The notes under the pieces are model-generated. The model worked only from the letters and a program-made list of their open reading frames with translations, was not told the DNA's origin and ran no database searches. A stretch of DNA of 64,000 nt, taken from contig NZ_SEUI01000002.1 in the NCBI RefSeq assembly GCF_008370255.1, positions 506,221 through 570,220 on the forward strand, in the 5' to 3' direction. Both the position numbers and the translations under genes were made by a program. Of the stretch, positions 28,220-31,874 are shown one piece after another. This DNA is from Pseudoalteromonas sp. FUC4. Its GTDB lineage: Bacteria > Pseudomonadota > Gammaproteobacteria > Enterobacterales > Alteromonadaceae. Each line of letters opens with the position of its first letter. Within the stretch, counting starts at the first letter, position 1.

Positions 28220-28879
28220 ATGAAAAACTTTAAAATTGATATCGTTTCAGACGTAATGTGCCCTTGGTGTGTAGTGGGTTATAAAAACCTAGAAACTGCA
28301 TTAGAGCAACTCAAAGACGAAATGAGCGCAGATATTACGTGGCATCCTTTTGAACTAAACCCAGATATGCCAATTGAAGGTCAAGACTTAAACGAACATT
28401 TAATGCAAAAGTACAACTTAAGTGAAGAGCAAGGCGACGAAAATCGTAAAAACATGTTCGAAGCCGGTCAGCGTGCTGGGTTTACCTTTAATTTTGATGG
28501 CAAACGCATCATGATCAACAGCTTTGATTTGCATCGTTTATTAATGTGGGCACGTGAAGAAGGTAAGCAAACCGAATTAAAACTTGCCTTTTTTGAAGCG
28601 CACTTCACTGATTTAAAATACTTAAATCAAGAAGAAGCACTACTCGACGTTGTTAAAAAAGTAGGTCTTGATAAAGAAACTGCGCGCGGTATTCTACATT
28701 CAGACAAATACGTACAAGACGTACGCCAAGAGCAAGACCGCTTTAAACAAATGGGGATTACTTCAGTACCTACGTTTATCATAAACGATAAATATGCACT
28801 TACTGGCGGACAACCAAGCGACTCATTCATTCAAGCACTAAAACAAATTAGTGAAGAAGAAGCCAAACAAGACGCTTAA
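28220..28879 (+). CDS. DsbA-family oxidoreductase (FrnE-like)
   Basis: A 219-residue thioredoxin-fold protein without a signal peptide, so probably cytoplasmic. The CPWC active site is at residues 14-17 (DVMCPWCVVGYKNLE). The helical insert and cis-Pro loop (GITSVPTFIINDKYALTGGQP) are typical of the FrnE/2-hydroxychromene-isomerase-like DsbA group, linked to oxidative-stress or dithiol redox functions. Monocistronic, between two terminators. Confidence 0.88.
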   Translation: MKNFKIDIVSDVMCPWCVVGYKNLETALEQLKDEMSADITWHPFELNPDMPIEGQDLNEHLMQKYNLSEEQGDENRKNMFEAGQRAGFTFNFDGKRIMINSFDLHRLLMWAREEGKQTELKLAFFEAHFTDLKYLNQEEALLDVVKKVGLDKETARGILHSDKYVQDVRQEQDRFKQMGITSVPTFIINDKYALTGGQPSDSFIQALKQISEEEAKQDA

Positions 28880-28903
28880 TATACAAATAAAGTTTAAAAC
28901 TAA

Positions 28904-28928
28904 AAAAGGCTGCTTATTGCAGCCTTTT
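28904..28928 (+). terminator. terminator of the FrnE-like gene
   Basis: Perfect arms AAAAGGCTGC / GCAGCCTTTT around TTATT. This is the last core-type feature before the accessory island. Confidence 0.85.
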
Positions 28929-29246
28929 CTGTTGCGTATAAGTAAGCGAGTAATAATCACCTTACTATAAACTTATTTGATATTTTATCGTCAACATACA
29001 GTATTAAATGCGCATGATTATTCGAAACATCACAAGTCATTTATCTTTAACACAGCCTCTAATATTCTCGTAGATGAACTTCACTGTATAAAAATTAGAA
29101 TGGGTATCTGTAGTGTTCAACTAATTTCGGCTGAAGGGCACAACGCTCAGGCAACACGATTTTCGTCTGCGTAAATATTTAAGTTAAACACTTAGGTTGG
29201 ATAGAGCGTAGCGAAACCCAACGAATATTCAATATTAGACAACTAG
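28929..29246. other. gene-free left edge of the accessory island
   Basis: 318 bases with no convincing gene. It holds a REP-like repeat (29193-29222) and leads into the truncated IS110-family transposase. A 64-codon ORF at 28977-29174 resembles nothing I know and has no good start signal. Confidence 0.55.
29193..29222. repeat. REP-like short palindromic repeat
   Basis: Imperfect inverted repeat of the form TAGGTTGG..GCGTAGCG..CCCAAC. A diverged second copy sits at 63602-63632. Such 30-bp elements are common between genes in gammaproteobacteria. Confidence 0.6.
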
Positions 29247-29663
29247 CTTGGCAGGGAGGGATTAGCACCTCGATTATTAGCCGCAATGGGGTCAAATCGT
29301 GACCGCTATAAGTGCGCCGCTGACATACAAAAATACGCAGGCATTGCTCCAGTAACCGAACGCAGTGGCAAAAAGGAATGGATACACTGGCGGTACTCAT
29401 GCACTAAGTTTTTAAGGCAAACGTTTGTGGAATGGGCAGGATTATCTGTGCGCTATTCATTTTGGGCAAAAGCATATTATCGGCAGCAAGAAGCCAAAGG
29501 AAAACCTCATAATACCATCATCAGAACATTGGCATTTAAGTGGATACGAATCCTATTTAGGTGCTGGACAACACATACGCCCTACGATGAATCAACTTAC
29601 TTAACTGCATTGAAAAGTAAGGGATCACCGCTGTTAAAATTTGCGGTGGAAAGTGAGTTTTAG
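29247..29663 (+). pseudogene. IS110-family transposase, C-terminal remnant
   Basis: The frame is closed by a stop just before 29247 and keeps only the C-terminal Transposase_20 part. It begins LAPRLLAAMGSNRDRY (the helix-hairpin-helix-like segment) and continues DIQKYAGIAPVTERSGKK and WAGLSVRYSFWAKAYY. The N-terminal DEDD nuclease domain is missing, so it cannot be active. Intact IS110 transposases are about 330-400 residues. The fragment ends right beside a cut attC-like site, as expected for the attC-targeting IS1111 subgroup. Confidence 0.85.
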
Positions 29664-29699
29664 CGCTTGCTGCCCACCTCAGGGCGTGTTGTTATAAGC
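29664..29699 (-). other. truncated attC-like site of the second cassette
   Basis: Read on the minus strand the site opens canonically, GGCTTATAAC then AACACGCCC. After that comes a small GCCC/GGGC hairpin, and it runs into the IS110 remnant instead of a right-hand GTTRRRY core. The first nine bases are the exact reverse complement of the 5' end of the same cassette (30285-30293), the rule for integron cassettes. Confidence 0.65.
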
Positions 29700-30273
29700 C
29701 GTGTTTCAAGGCTGCCAAGTCTAAGGAAGCTTGGATAGCTACCTTATTACCTGAACACATACTTATTTCACAGCCTGATAATAAAGCGTAATTTGAAGAA
29801 AAATCTAATAAATTCTTTAATAGTTCATCATCATGACTATTAGTGATTGAGTCTTCATTGTACTTTCTGCTTAATAGAGCTGCGCCTGAATGAGTAAAAC
29901 TATTTAATGTGTTCCAATAATGTCCCTTAGGTACAGATAACTTACTTCCTTTTTTTTCATCAATATCTTTGATCATTGCACCAAACGTTTTTTGAAACTT
30001 ATCTTTTCGTAGAGCATTAAAGTCTTTCTCCTCTGCACAATGCGAAAACCATAACCCTTTCACATAAGCTTCAAAAAGCGGCCTCATTAAAGTACAAGCA
30101 GAGCTAAACAAGTTACGTTTTATGAGTAAAATGATACTCCGATGATGTTCTATTACAGTTGAGTGAAATAGCGAAGGAATAAAAATCTTATCATCACTAG
30201 GTATTTCTAAACCTTCGTGGATCGTATTTATATCTATAGATAATTGATATGCTTCATCAGTGTCAGATTTCAT
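29692..30273 (-). CDS. cassette-borne helical protein of unknown function
   Basis: A 193-residue cytoplasmic, largely alpha-helical protein. The blocks HHRSIILLIKRNLFSSACTL, RPLFEAYVKGLWFSH and NSFTHSGAALLSR recall DUF5677/DUF6988-type proteins, which are HEPN-like; this is a weak resemblance and no catalytic motif is certain. The frame can be extended back to 30312, but those codons are the attC site itself, so the ATG at 30273 after AAGGG is preferred. It lies downstream of the AbiTii gene in the next cassette. Confidence 0.7.
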   Translation of the reverse strand: MKSDTDEAYQLSIDINTIHEGLEIPSDDKIFIPSLFHSTVIEHHRSIILLIKRNLFSSACTLMRPLFEAYVKGLWFSHCAEEKDFNALRKDKFQKTFGAMIKDIDEKKGSKLSVPKGHYWNTLNSFTHSGAALLSRKYNEDSITNSHDDELLKNLLDFSSNYALLSGCEISMCSGNKVAIQASLDLAALKHGL

Positions 30274-30287
30274 GGAACCCTTAAGGC

Positions 30288-30359
30288 TTATAATGCCCAG
30301 CTCAGCGGGCAATTTGAGCGCAGCGAAAATTGATCCGCTGCAGCTGTTTGTTAAGGCAC
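30288..30359 (-). other. attC-like recombination site between two cassettes
   Basis: On the minus strand it reads GTGCCTTAAC (R'' core), then arms CAGCTGCAGCGG and ATCAATTT folding back on AAATTG and CCCGCTGAGCTG with unpaired extra bases, then GGGC-A-TTATAAGCC (R' side). The extrahelical bases and arms are typical of attC. The crossover base expected as G is A here. The stop codon of the AbiTii gene is inside the R'' core, as is common in cassettes. Confidence 0.8.
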
Positions 30360-31244
30360 GATTGCCGCTAAAGCCGGAAGAAATGGTGCCACGACGGGAC
30401 CCAAAACTGTCATGTGATTTGATAGCAAAGACATAAAATGCTGATAGTGTTCTTTAAAGCTTTGAGTGCCCTGACTAGAGCGCATTTCTTCGATATTATT
30501 ACATAGAGGCACTGTAATCTCTGGCTGATTAACGGACTGCAATGCCTCTAATAGCTGAGAGAATAATTTTGCATTTGTATCGTTGTTTGTTGCATGCTGC
30601 TCAAAGCTATGACTACCAGTAGCAACATTCTGAACACTGCCCGATATATAGGTATTAAATATTTGATTTACTTTTTCTGGTGGTACTGGAGAAGAGTTCA
30701 GCGCAGCCTCACCAGCCTCAGGGTCTTGAGCTTCAATTTCTAATACGAAGTTTAATATCCTATTTCTTATTTCATCAAGTGCTGCAATTACTGATGTAAT
30801 CGGAATCACCTTCCACGCTTGCATGCAGTTCATTCGCTCATAAATTTTTTGGCCGACTAATGCTACAAAGTCTGGATTCCATGGCTCTTGCGCAGTGCCT
30901 CCTTCGCACTTTGAAACTAAAGCTTCCATCCCAGCAACTGGTTCCATCATGTTAGAGCGTGACATACTTTCACGAAAATTTTCTGGTATGCACATCAATG
31001 GTATATCAGCATTGTTTAACCCTGAACCAAATGCACCTGAAAAATGCCCTTTTGAAGTGACATGTATAATTCTATATTCAGGTAAGCAATCGGCATCTCT
31101 GTAGCCGCTTAATTCAGCATCCACCCAAGCTTTAAACTCCTGACTTCCTAGGCGGGCAGATAGGACTTTACACTTCCGAAGTAAACTAGCTAAATCAGTT
31201 TTAGAATCAATAGCCGCATCTTGAATTTCTCTTAAAAGTGACAT
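30351..31244 (-). CDS. AbiTii-domain protein (putative abortive-infection/phage-defence)
   Basis: A 297-residue protein whose N-terminal ~200 residues fit the AbiTii domain as I know it: LLREIQDAAIDSKTDLASLLRKCKVLSARLG, split by eye into helices, then EFKAWVDAELSGY and LPEYRI. The middle holds YISGSVQNVATGS, a beta segment also seen near AbiTii domains, and a hydrophobic C-terminal end (VAPFLPALAAIVP) could be a membrane or pore segment. Mechanism unknown. An AAAGGAG site supports the start. Its flanks TTAAGGCAC and GTGCCTTAA are exact reverse complements, marking an integron cassette. Confidence 0.78.
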   Translation of the reverse strand: MSLLREIQDAAIDSKTDLASLLRKCKVLSARLGSQEFKAWVDAELSGYRDADCLPEYRIIHVTSKGHFSGAFGSGLNNADIPLMCIPENFRESMSRSNMMEPVAGMEALVSKCEGGTAQEPWNPDFVALVGQKIYERMNCMQAWKVIPITSVIAALDEIRNRILNFVLEIEAQDPEAGEAALNSSPVPPEKVNQIFNTYISGSVQNVATGSHSFEQHATNNDTNAKLFSQLLEALQSVNQPEITVPLCNNIEEMRSSQGTQSFKEHYQHFMSLLSNHMTVLGPVVAPFLPALAAIVP

Positions 31245-31280
31245 CCATACTCCTTTAGTGCCTTAACAATTTTGTCTACA

Positions 31281-31310
31281 ACATTTGTCGTTTTATAAAC
31301 CGACAAATGT
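31281..31310. repeat. perfect inverted repeat near the cassette boundary
   Basis: Arms ACATTTGTCG / CGACAAATGT around a 10-base AT loop, 14 bases from the cassette edge and about 37 bases upstream of the AbiTii start. It could be an operator, or part of an attI or attC arm; the sequence alone does not decide. Confidence 0.6.
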
Positions 31311-31495
31311 CCATATATTACAATGTATTTATCTTAGCCATCAAATAAACACTTGTAAACAACTAGTTAACTCCAAGAATTTTTAAGTTAGTGCAAAAAT
31401 ACACCGTAATGGTGGAGATCAGTAATATTAGAAAAAACAACAAGAGCTGTTTATTTATACGGTTATTTTATTAAGGAACGAGGAAATTAAGATGA

Positions 31496-31544
31496 CACCC
31501 ATCCTAATTCTTAGTTCGTCAAAGTGTAAAGTTTAGGATAGGTG
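31496..31544. repeat. imperfect inverted repeat, possible mobile remnant
   Basis: CACCCATCCTAA and TTAGGATAGGTG (11 of 12 complementary) 25 bases apart. Possible end of a small non-autonomous element, or an RNA hairpin; unassigned. Confidence 0.45.
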
Positions 31545-31595
31545 ATGAAATGGACGCTTGCTAAGACGCGTCAATTGCCAAACTGCTTAAGTAAA

Positions 31596-31874
31596 TTAAG
31601 TACGGTAAAGTACTTTAATTACATGCCAGCCGAATTTTGTTTTAACTAGGTGGGGTTCTAAAATTGCGCCTTTAAATGCAATTTTATCAAACTGAGGGAC
31701 CATTTGGCCGCGTCTAAATTCACCTAAGTCACCGCCTTTTTTACCCGATGGGCATGACGAATACTTTTTAGCTAAGGTTTGAAACTTTGCACCTTTACCT
31801 AATTGCTTAATAATATCTTCTGCAATTTCTTTGTGCTTTACCAAAATGTGAAGTGCATGTGCTGTGTTTGCCAT
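31596..31874 (-). CDS. ppiC: peptidyl-prolyl cis-trans isomerase C (parvulin)
   Basis: A 92-residue free-standing parvulin domain, the size of E. coli PpiC (93). It has [38 protein letters not shown] (cut by eye into the conserved parvulin halves) and [11 protein letters not shown]. Cytoplasmic foldase. It marks the return to core genes right of the cassette island. Confidence 0.93.

Follow-up and report, generated by a model that had tools for sequence, protein, structure and literature searches.

A probable integrase-less integron platform with an AbiTii cassette in Pseudoalteromonas

Cassettes, attI and an insertion element between a FrnE-like gene and ppiC

The window, the whole 64-kb stretch of DNA that was analysed (G000:C9:506221-570220), belongs to a Pseudoalteromonas genome of 4.33 Mb in 16 contigs (G000). 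Between a FrnE/DsbA-like gene (28220-28879) and ppiC (31596-31874) it contains a foreign segment at 29261-31484, the limits of which follow from alignments to related genomes. Homology to G030 ends at 29260 and restarts at 31484, and homology to G031 ends at 29105 and restarts at 31485. Both relatives carry genes between the FrnE-like gene and ppiC that are unlike those of the window, and in G020 and G021 the nearly empty spacing between the two genes amounts to only about 115-120 bp. The gap (window 28880-31595) is a variable insertion spot. Among 108 genomes of the genus, the integron piece described here occurs at this address in G000 alone and is unreplicated. By eye, AATTAGGATGGGTGTC-like stretches in inverted orientation lie close to the edges of the gap. 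An Rfam scan of the 64-kb window yielded 0 matches.

The segment contains two tandem integron cassettes, which confirms a first-pass annotation that had pointed to paired boundary sequences, a foldable attC-like site between the genes, an AbiTii gene in one cassette and the lack of intI in the window. All four boundary sequences were recovered on the minus strand: GTTAAGGCAC (31258-31267) and GTGCCTTAAC (30350-30359) enclose the AbiTii gene, and TTATAAGCC (30285-30293) and GGCTTATAA (29692-29700) enclose the next gene, which encodes a DUF6988 protein. The ends of the DUF6988 cassette are complementary at 9 of 9 bases, and the complementarity of the AbiTii pair extends to 12 of 12. The first cassette (30294-31266, minus strand), delimited by its boundary complementarity and an attC model match, reaches from the TT of the crossover to the end of its own attC (30288-30359, minus strand). 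It encodes an AbiTii-domain protein of 297 residues (30351-31244, minus strand; PF18864, E 1.6e-43, 149.5 bits against a Pfam cut-off of 27.6), with the stop codon inside the R'' box. The hairpin between the genes, 73 nt long, folds better than shuffled sequences (z -3.7 on the minus strand, -3.4 on the plus strand). In a test of the kind proposed with the first-pass annotation, an attC covariance model (R2), trained on 17 attCs from other loci with the window attC excluded and giving rough E-values, found one match at E<=10 in the 64-kb window, at 30288-30356 on the minus strand (21.8 bits, E 0.015). At the crossover of this attC the usual G is replaced by A (minus-strand position 30294, before TTATAAGCC), so that it reads ATT and not GTT.

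The second cassette encodes a DUF6988 protein of 193 residues (29692-30273, minus strand; PF22491, E 1.4e-24; PF18928, E 1e-8), the stop codon of which again lies inside an R'' box. R2 gave no credible attC match at the end of this cassette, where the R'' half alone survives (GGCTTATAAC, 29691-29700, minus strand) and is interrupted directly after the box. The interruption is the 3' end of an IS1111/IS110-type element on the plus strand (29261-29699) that retains the C-terminus of its transposase (29286-29663; PF02371, E 6.9e-11, with NF033542 under its cut-off) and lacks its left part. The remnant, which had escaped the first-pass annotation, starts exactly where homology to G030 stops. It is 96% identical over 439 bp to an IS110-type element located in an attC of the complete integron on contig C1, and by eye the junction just after the R'' box is the same in the window attC and in one attC of the C1 array. 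From the shared junction and the high identity it was concluded that the attC of cassette 2 had been entered by an IS110-type element. An IS110-type transposase at a fixed point of attC is found at two attCs of this genome, as in the IS1111-attC group, whose members insert at one end of attC (Tetu and Holmes 2008; Post and Hall 2009, as cited in PMC11187229). The window copy shares the transposase type and the insertion at one attC end with this group and differs in keeping its 3' end only.

Directly before the AbiTii cassette lies a stretch likewise missing from the first-pass annotation, which by its sequence is recognisable as an attI with a predicted cassette promoter Pc (31264-31470, minus strand). 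Its crossover, between G 31267 and T 31266, reads GTT. Over 210 alignment columns (207 bp) that end at the crossover it is 88% identical to the attI of the complete integron on C1 (G000:C1, attI part 935897-936105, intI 936136-937080). The promoter, predicted by consensus (31331-31359, minus strand), combines a -35 box TTTACA (31354-31359) and a -10 box TAAGAT (31331-31336) with a spacer of 17 nt. A near-perfect palindrome of 30 bp (31281-31310), the arms of which are 93% complementary, is presumed to be the IntI-binding region. Farther upstream, CCGTATAAATAAACAG at 31447-31462 (minus strand), the intact form of which is CTGTATATATAGACAG, is what we take by consensus to be the decayed LexA box of a lost intI promoter. 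Between the intI promoter and Pc lies a conserved motif, ATATTACTGATCTCCACCATTA (also given as ATATTACTGATCTCCACCATTT; 31407-31428, minus strand). At up to three mismatches it has 5 matches in this genome, each at one of the six attI modules described below and none away from them, and a reversed control has 0; it is conserved even among modules without intI.

No intI was found beside the window module by a TIGR02249 search and inspection of the flank. At E<=0.001, the search gave six matches in the genome, two of them full-length and all outside the window. The first-pass annotation had taken the pair as probably an orphan cassette cluster (CALIN). Two cassettes and no local intI speak for this class, the definition of which asks for two or more attC sites with no intI close by and does not require an attI; the window has one recognisable attC, one truncated attC and, in addition, the attI with Pc that resembles the C1 attI. 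A plain CALIN, with cassettes inserted at a genomic site other than attI (attG), would account for two cassettes in a window devoid of intI, but insertion at attG would not bring along an attI/Pc module of 207 bp such as accompanies intI elsewhere. We regard it as very improbable.

attI modules and their addresses in the genus

In this genome the attI module is present six times, once next to intI and five times without it. A sequence model built from these six copies (R1), which gives the window copy as a member of its own training set a score of 110 bits, matched 36 of the 108 genus genomes at E<=0.001. When only strong modules of at least 45 bits were retained, so that weak matches and reverse-strand matches to the palindrome were dropped, 81 modules in 31 of the 108 genomes remained. 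Seven of them have a full-length intI of the C1 type and six a broken remnant; the other 68 have none in the fetched flank, two of these with less than 250 bp upstream, too short to judge. When 295 genomes of the order were searched at E<=1e-6 with stricter filters, only the genome of the window matched, and no outside source emerged. Three records of a plasmid collection contain the module, all large Pseudoalteromonas replicons, and the 11 stretches in named records that match the attI motif are likewise all from Pseudoalteromonas.

One could instead deny that the repeated module is an attI and read it as a dispersed promoter, a palindromic repeat or a site targeted by some other element, placed in front of cassettes by chance. 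The 30-bp palindrome in the copies of this genome would agree with such a repeat, and the IS91-type element present at 5 of the 81 crossovers, which encodes a tyrosine recombinase of its own, with such a target. Seven modules, however, sit about 105-135 bp from the start of a full-length intI in divergent orientation, and the junctions lie at G^TT, often followed by cassettes with complementary ends. Of the 81 sites of this type in the window genome and its relatives, 34 have an exact complement of at least 9 bases to the cassette end within 4.5 kb, as opposed to 40 of 929 random GTTA sites from the same loci, which may themselves contain real cassette starts (one-sided Fisher p 5e-21). The complement is missing from 47 of the 81 modules and present in 25 of the 68 without intI. 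Behind the four other intI-less modules of this genome, R2 detected one strong attC at L049, one strong and one weaker attC at L051, a weak one at L050 and none at L052. That the module is something other than an attI appears highly unlikely.

Sorted by the proteins of their left flank, the 81 modules fall into 12 shared addresses (of 14, 14, 8, 8, 8 and 5 modules, and six of 2) and 12 singletons, so that six addresses are each common to 5 to 14 modules. Of the two largest, one is situated directly behind serS, in a neighbourhood that we read from its proteins as rarA-crcB-serS. A full intI is present in 2 of the 14 modules at this address; among 13 further genomes, three have pieces of intI there and no strong module, the pieces in G031 being tiny. 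At the C1 address, intI is full in one, broken in five and absent in two of eight genomes.

Alignment, tree and pair counts comprised 69 modules, after 12 of the 81 with an uncertain crossover or a short flank had been left out. On the tree, addresses require 13 changes compared with 35.0 in shuffles, and none of 200 shuffles was as low; genome labels on the same tree require 50 changes, a figure obtained without shuffles. The grouping of modules by address indicates that for the most part they have been inherited where they stand. Some addresses do not form a single clade: addresses 0, 2, 3 and 5 need three changes each. At serS, nine of the ten intI-less modules fall on one supported side (100/100), with two modules of address 9 inside, and their upstream spacers occur in about three forms. 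This arrangement suggests that intI was already absent in the common ancestor of the nine. The two intI-bearing serS modules fall outside this clade, and the history of the address therefore comprises more than the loss of intI from one integron.

Cassette turnover and the supply of integrase

Different cassettes follow the modules that share an address. Between intI-less modules at the same address, with modules bearing full or broken intI and pairs within a genome excluded, 155 of 159 pairs have different first cassettes; of the 13 pairs whose flanks are at least 95% identical, 12 do. At the serS address, the first 400 bp past the crossover differ in 91 of 91 pairs, a set that takes in two modules of uncertain crossover and two with full intI. 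DNA behind the crossover that is common to different addresses fills a list of 104 rows, which was not counted as cassette exchange because insertion elements had not been removed from it.

Conservation upstream of the crossover has the opposite appearance for Pc and attI on the one hand and the LexA box on the other. In modules with full intI (n=7), with a remnant (n=6) and without intI (n=56), the column identity of the LexA box is 0.99, 0.91 and 0.61, respectively, and the dyad CTGTN8ACAG survives in 7 of 7, 4 of 6 and 11 of 56. For the -35 box the corresponding identities are 1.00, 1.00 and 0.99, and for the attI core 0.97, 0.99 and 0.88. The -10 box has a column identity of 0.83 in the 56 intI-less modules, and the palindrome 0.91 in those without and 1.00 in those with intI. 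Part of this conservation of Pc and attI follows from the search itself, as R1 was built on their columns; the motif at 31407-31428 and the LexA box lie outside R1. Pc and attI stay conserved while the LexA box of the missing intI decays.

These data establish the anatomy of the segment, its homology to a complete integron of the same genome and its place in a wider set of such modules. The reading as a whole, an integron platform without intI in a set that is mostly inherited and whose first cassettes change, is probable. The platform consists of attI with the predicted Pc, the AbiTii cassette and then the DUF6988 cassette, the attC of which was entered by an attC-targeting IS1111-type element that is now truncated. 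Such platforms may derive from complete integrons that lost intI, as the eight genomes at the C1 address illustrate. Cassettes would then be exchanged by IntI synthesized elsewhere in the genome or imported, and the location of the junctions at the G^TT crossover points to IntI as the driving enzyme. Action of a distant IntI in trans on the platforms is plausible. Pc would transcribe AbiTii as the first-position cassette, followed by DUF6988, with phage defence as the likely output. In the window itself the pair, with its altered crossover and its broken terminal attC, may now be expressed but poorly excisable, perhaps frozen, and the intact attI could still receive new cassettes. The attribute "mobile", given to the pair in the first-pass annotation, is doubtful for the same two reasons.

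A more static history is possible, if somewhat doubtful: a decayed piece of an integron landed between the FrnE-like gene and ppiC, recombination is over, at most expression from Pc has been kept, and the cassette differences at other addresses date from the time when intI was present. Such a relic would have the ATT crossover, the broken terminal attC and the decayed LexA box seen here, and it agrees with the first cassette being shared in 4 of the 159 pairs and with the 24 of 31 host genomes that have no full IntI beside any strong module. Against it stand the different first cassettes in 12 of the 13 pairs whose flanks are almost the same, the nine intI-less serS modules on one side of the tree, which suggest an ancestral absence of intI, though their spacers are of about three forms, the conserved attI core of the modules, and the full-length cognate IntI that the window genome keeps.

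For the changing platforms that we prefer, the supply of integrase is the main difficulty. The 4 pairs with a common first cassette, the 47 modules that lack a cassette-end complement, the missing or weak attC behind two of the four other intI-less platforms of this genome, and the ATT crossover and single occurrence of the window platform also count against them. The cognate enzyme of the window genome, the C1 IntI, is full-length and has an intact LexA box. A second full-length IntI (G000:C9:443514-444461, L008/L009, an open frame of 341 aa) is encoded on C9 about 91 kb from the window cassettes; it is about 60% identical to the C1 IntI, and by eye its attI differs. Across the genus, a full IntI beside at least one strong module was found in only 7 of 31 genomes. 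The 24 genomes without an adjacent full cognate IntI constitute the main weakness of action in trans, and recent turnover in them requires a recently lost, an imported or a different IntI. The IntI proteins encoded at other places in G019, G104 and G123 are 56% identical to the C1 IntI, and no R1 match lies beside them. At L200 (G069:C30), an IntI 87% identical to the C1 IntI is accompanied by a clearly divergent attI (R1 18.6 bits), a pair that could help to map the specificity of IntI for attI.

An integron is commonly pictured as a single array, served by a single integrase, in which just one first position is expressed. The platforms raise the tentative possibility, to which we give somewhat less than an even chance, of a distributed integron in which one IntI serves in trans several inherited intI-less attI-Pc docking sites, so that several cassettes, often defence-like, would hold a strongly expressed first position at once and would not compete for one. 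A Pseudoalteromonas clade with many orthologous intI-less attI-Pc sites, the first cassettes of which differ from one sister species to another, offers natural material to test the action of IntI on distant attI sites, and to test whether IntI in trans relaxes the limit of one first position. The inherited docking sites with their changing first cassettes are the part worth following.

Related systems, cargo and elements at the crossover

With a complete sedentary chromosomal integron the window shares an attI with Pc, co-oriented cassettes and an attC between them, and the same type of attI stands beside intI in the genome. It differs by the lack of an adjacent intI, the decayed LexA box of the intI promoter and the number of cassettes, which is only two. 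CALINs or SALINs are described as cassettes lacking an integron-integrase in PMC12444791, PMC9229058 and PMC12690207. According to PMC12444791, CALINs of Xanthomonas are found repeatedly at conserved loci and can reportedly be mobilised in trans, which makes them the closest parallel for fixed addresses. They resemble the window in having attC cassettes away from any intI, whereas here attI and Pc are kept and one address bears different cassettes across species. Searches that name intI-less arrays CALINs and do not look for attI would miss such platforms. The closest precedent found is the Shewanella prophage M16-3 (PMC9892861), where an array without intI is headed by attI and the genome also has a complete integron. 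That is one case in a prophage, compared with up to six strong modules per genome here, which are chromosomal and many of whose addresses are common to several species. Among the titles and abstract openings surveyed, with few subscription papers among them, there was no description of multiple intI-less attI sites in Pseudoalteromonas.

The proposal in the first-pass annotation that the pair forms a phage-defence module is a guess based on homology; both proteins match PADLOC models (AbiTii, E 2.3e-43, for cassette 1; PDC-S52, E 1.1e-20, for the DUF6988 protein). We take PDC in the names of these models to mean defence candidate. AbiTii proteins have an alpha+beta domain that in some relatives is fused to HEPN RNase domains (PMC3710099); a Pfam scan of the window protein gave no HEPN match. 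At E<=1e-20, AbiTii matches occur in 3 of the 108 genus genomes, including that of the window. In G007 (L203, G007:C45) a 33% identical protein is encoded by the second cassette behind a truncated intI, the first 158 residues of which were matched; a strong attC match (91.8 bits) lies just before the gene, and its own attC runs off the contig. In G025 a truncated protein with 55% identity adjoins the glyoxalase-like gene that marks another module address. These two contexts indicate that AbiTii as a cassette is not a single accident.

First cassettes were sampled by the longest early open reading frame, which for the 69 modules gave 68 frames, a few of them starting 330-450 bp in and perhaps not the first gene. 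PADLOC and Pfam were applied to 63 of the 68, after removal of four copies or near-copies and one IS91-type recombinase fragment. The 63 include AbiTii, DUF3644 (PDC-S19), three PDC-S31, two kinases, HamA, SieB and AbiU2, given here as raw counts; for at least 27 of the 63, Pfam gave nothing at E<=1e-5. That integrons can store anti-phage cassettes has been reported by Darracq 2025, Kieffer 2025 and Getz 2025, as described in PMC12409362. The first-position cassettes here resemble these in matching defence families, the window pair being known by homology only, and with the AbiTii cassette there is a further first-position candidate for phage defence carried by integrons.

Five modules were initially suspected of carrying a cassette with its own recombinase. 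This was rejected; the DNA at their crossover is an IS91-type element that encodes a tyrosine recombinase and a Y2/Zn_Tnp_IS91 transposase (at about L103:5095-7471, and at G031_C28_576522, G061_C1_1736858, G082_C15_4825 and G030_C181_1659). The far end of the element meets the GTTA of a following stretch, and the element seems to target integron attI sites. At one address (L110, G061:C2:209997 and 211258), there is a tandem pair of attI modules with a distance of about 1.26 kb between them; behind the first lies a gene resembling short-chain dehydrogenases.
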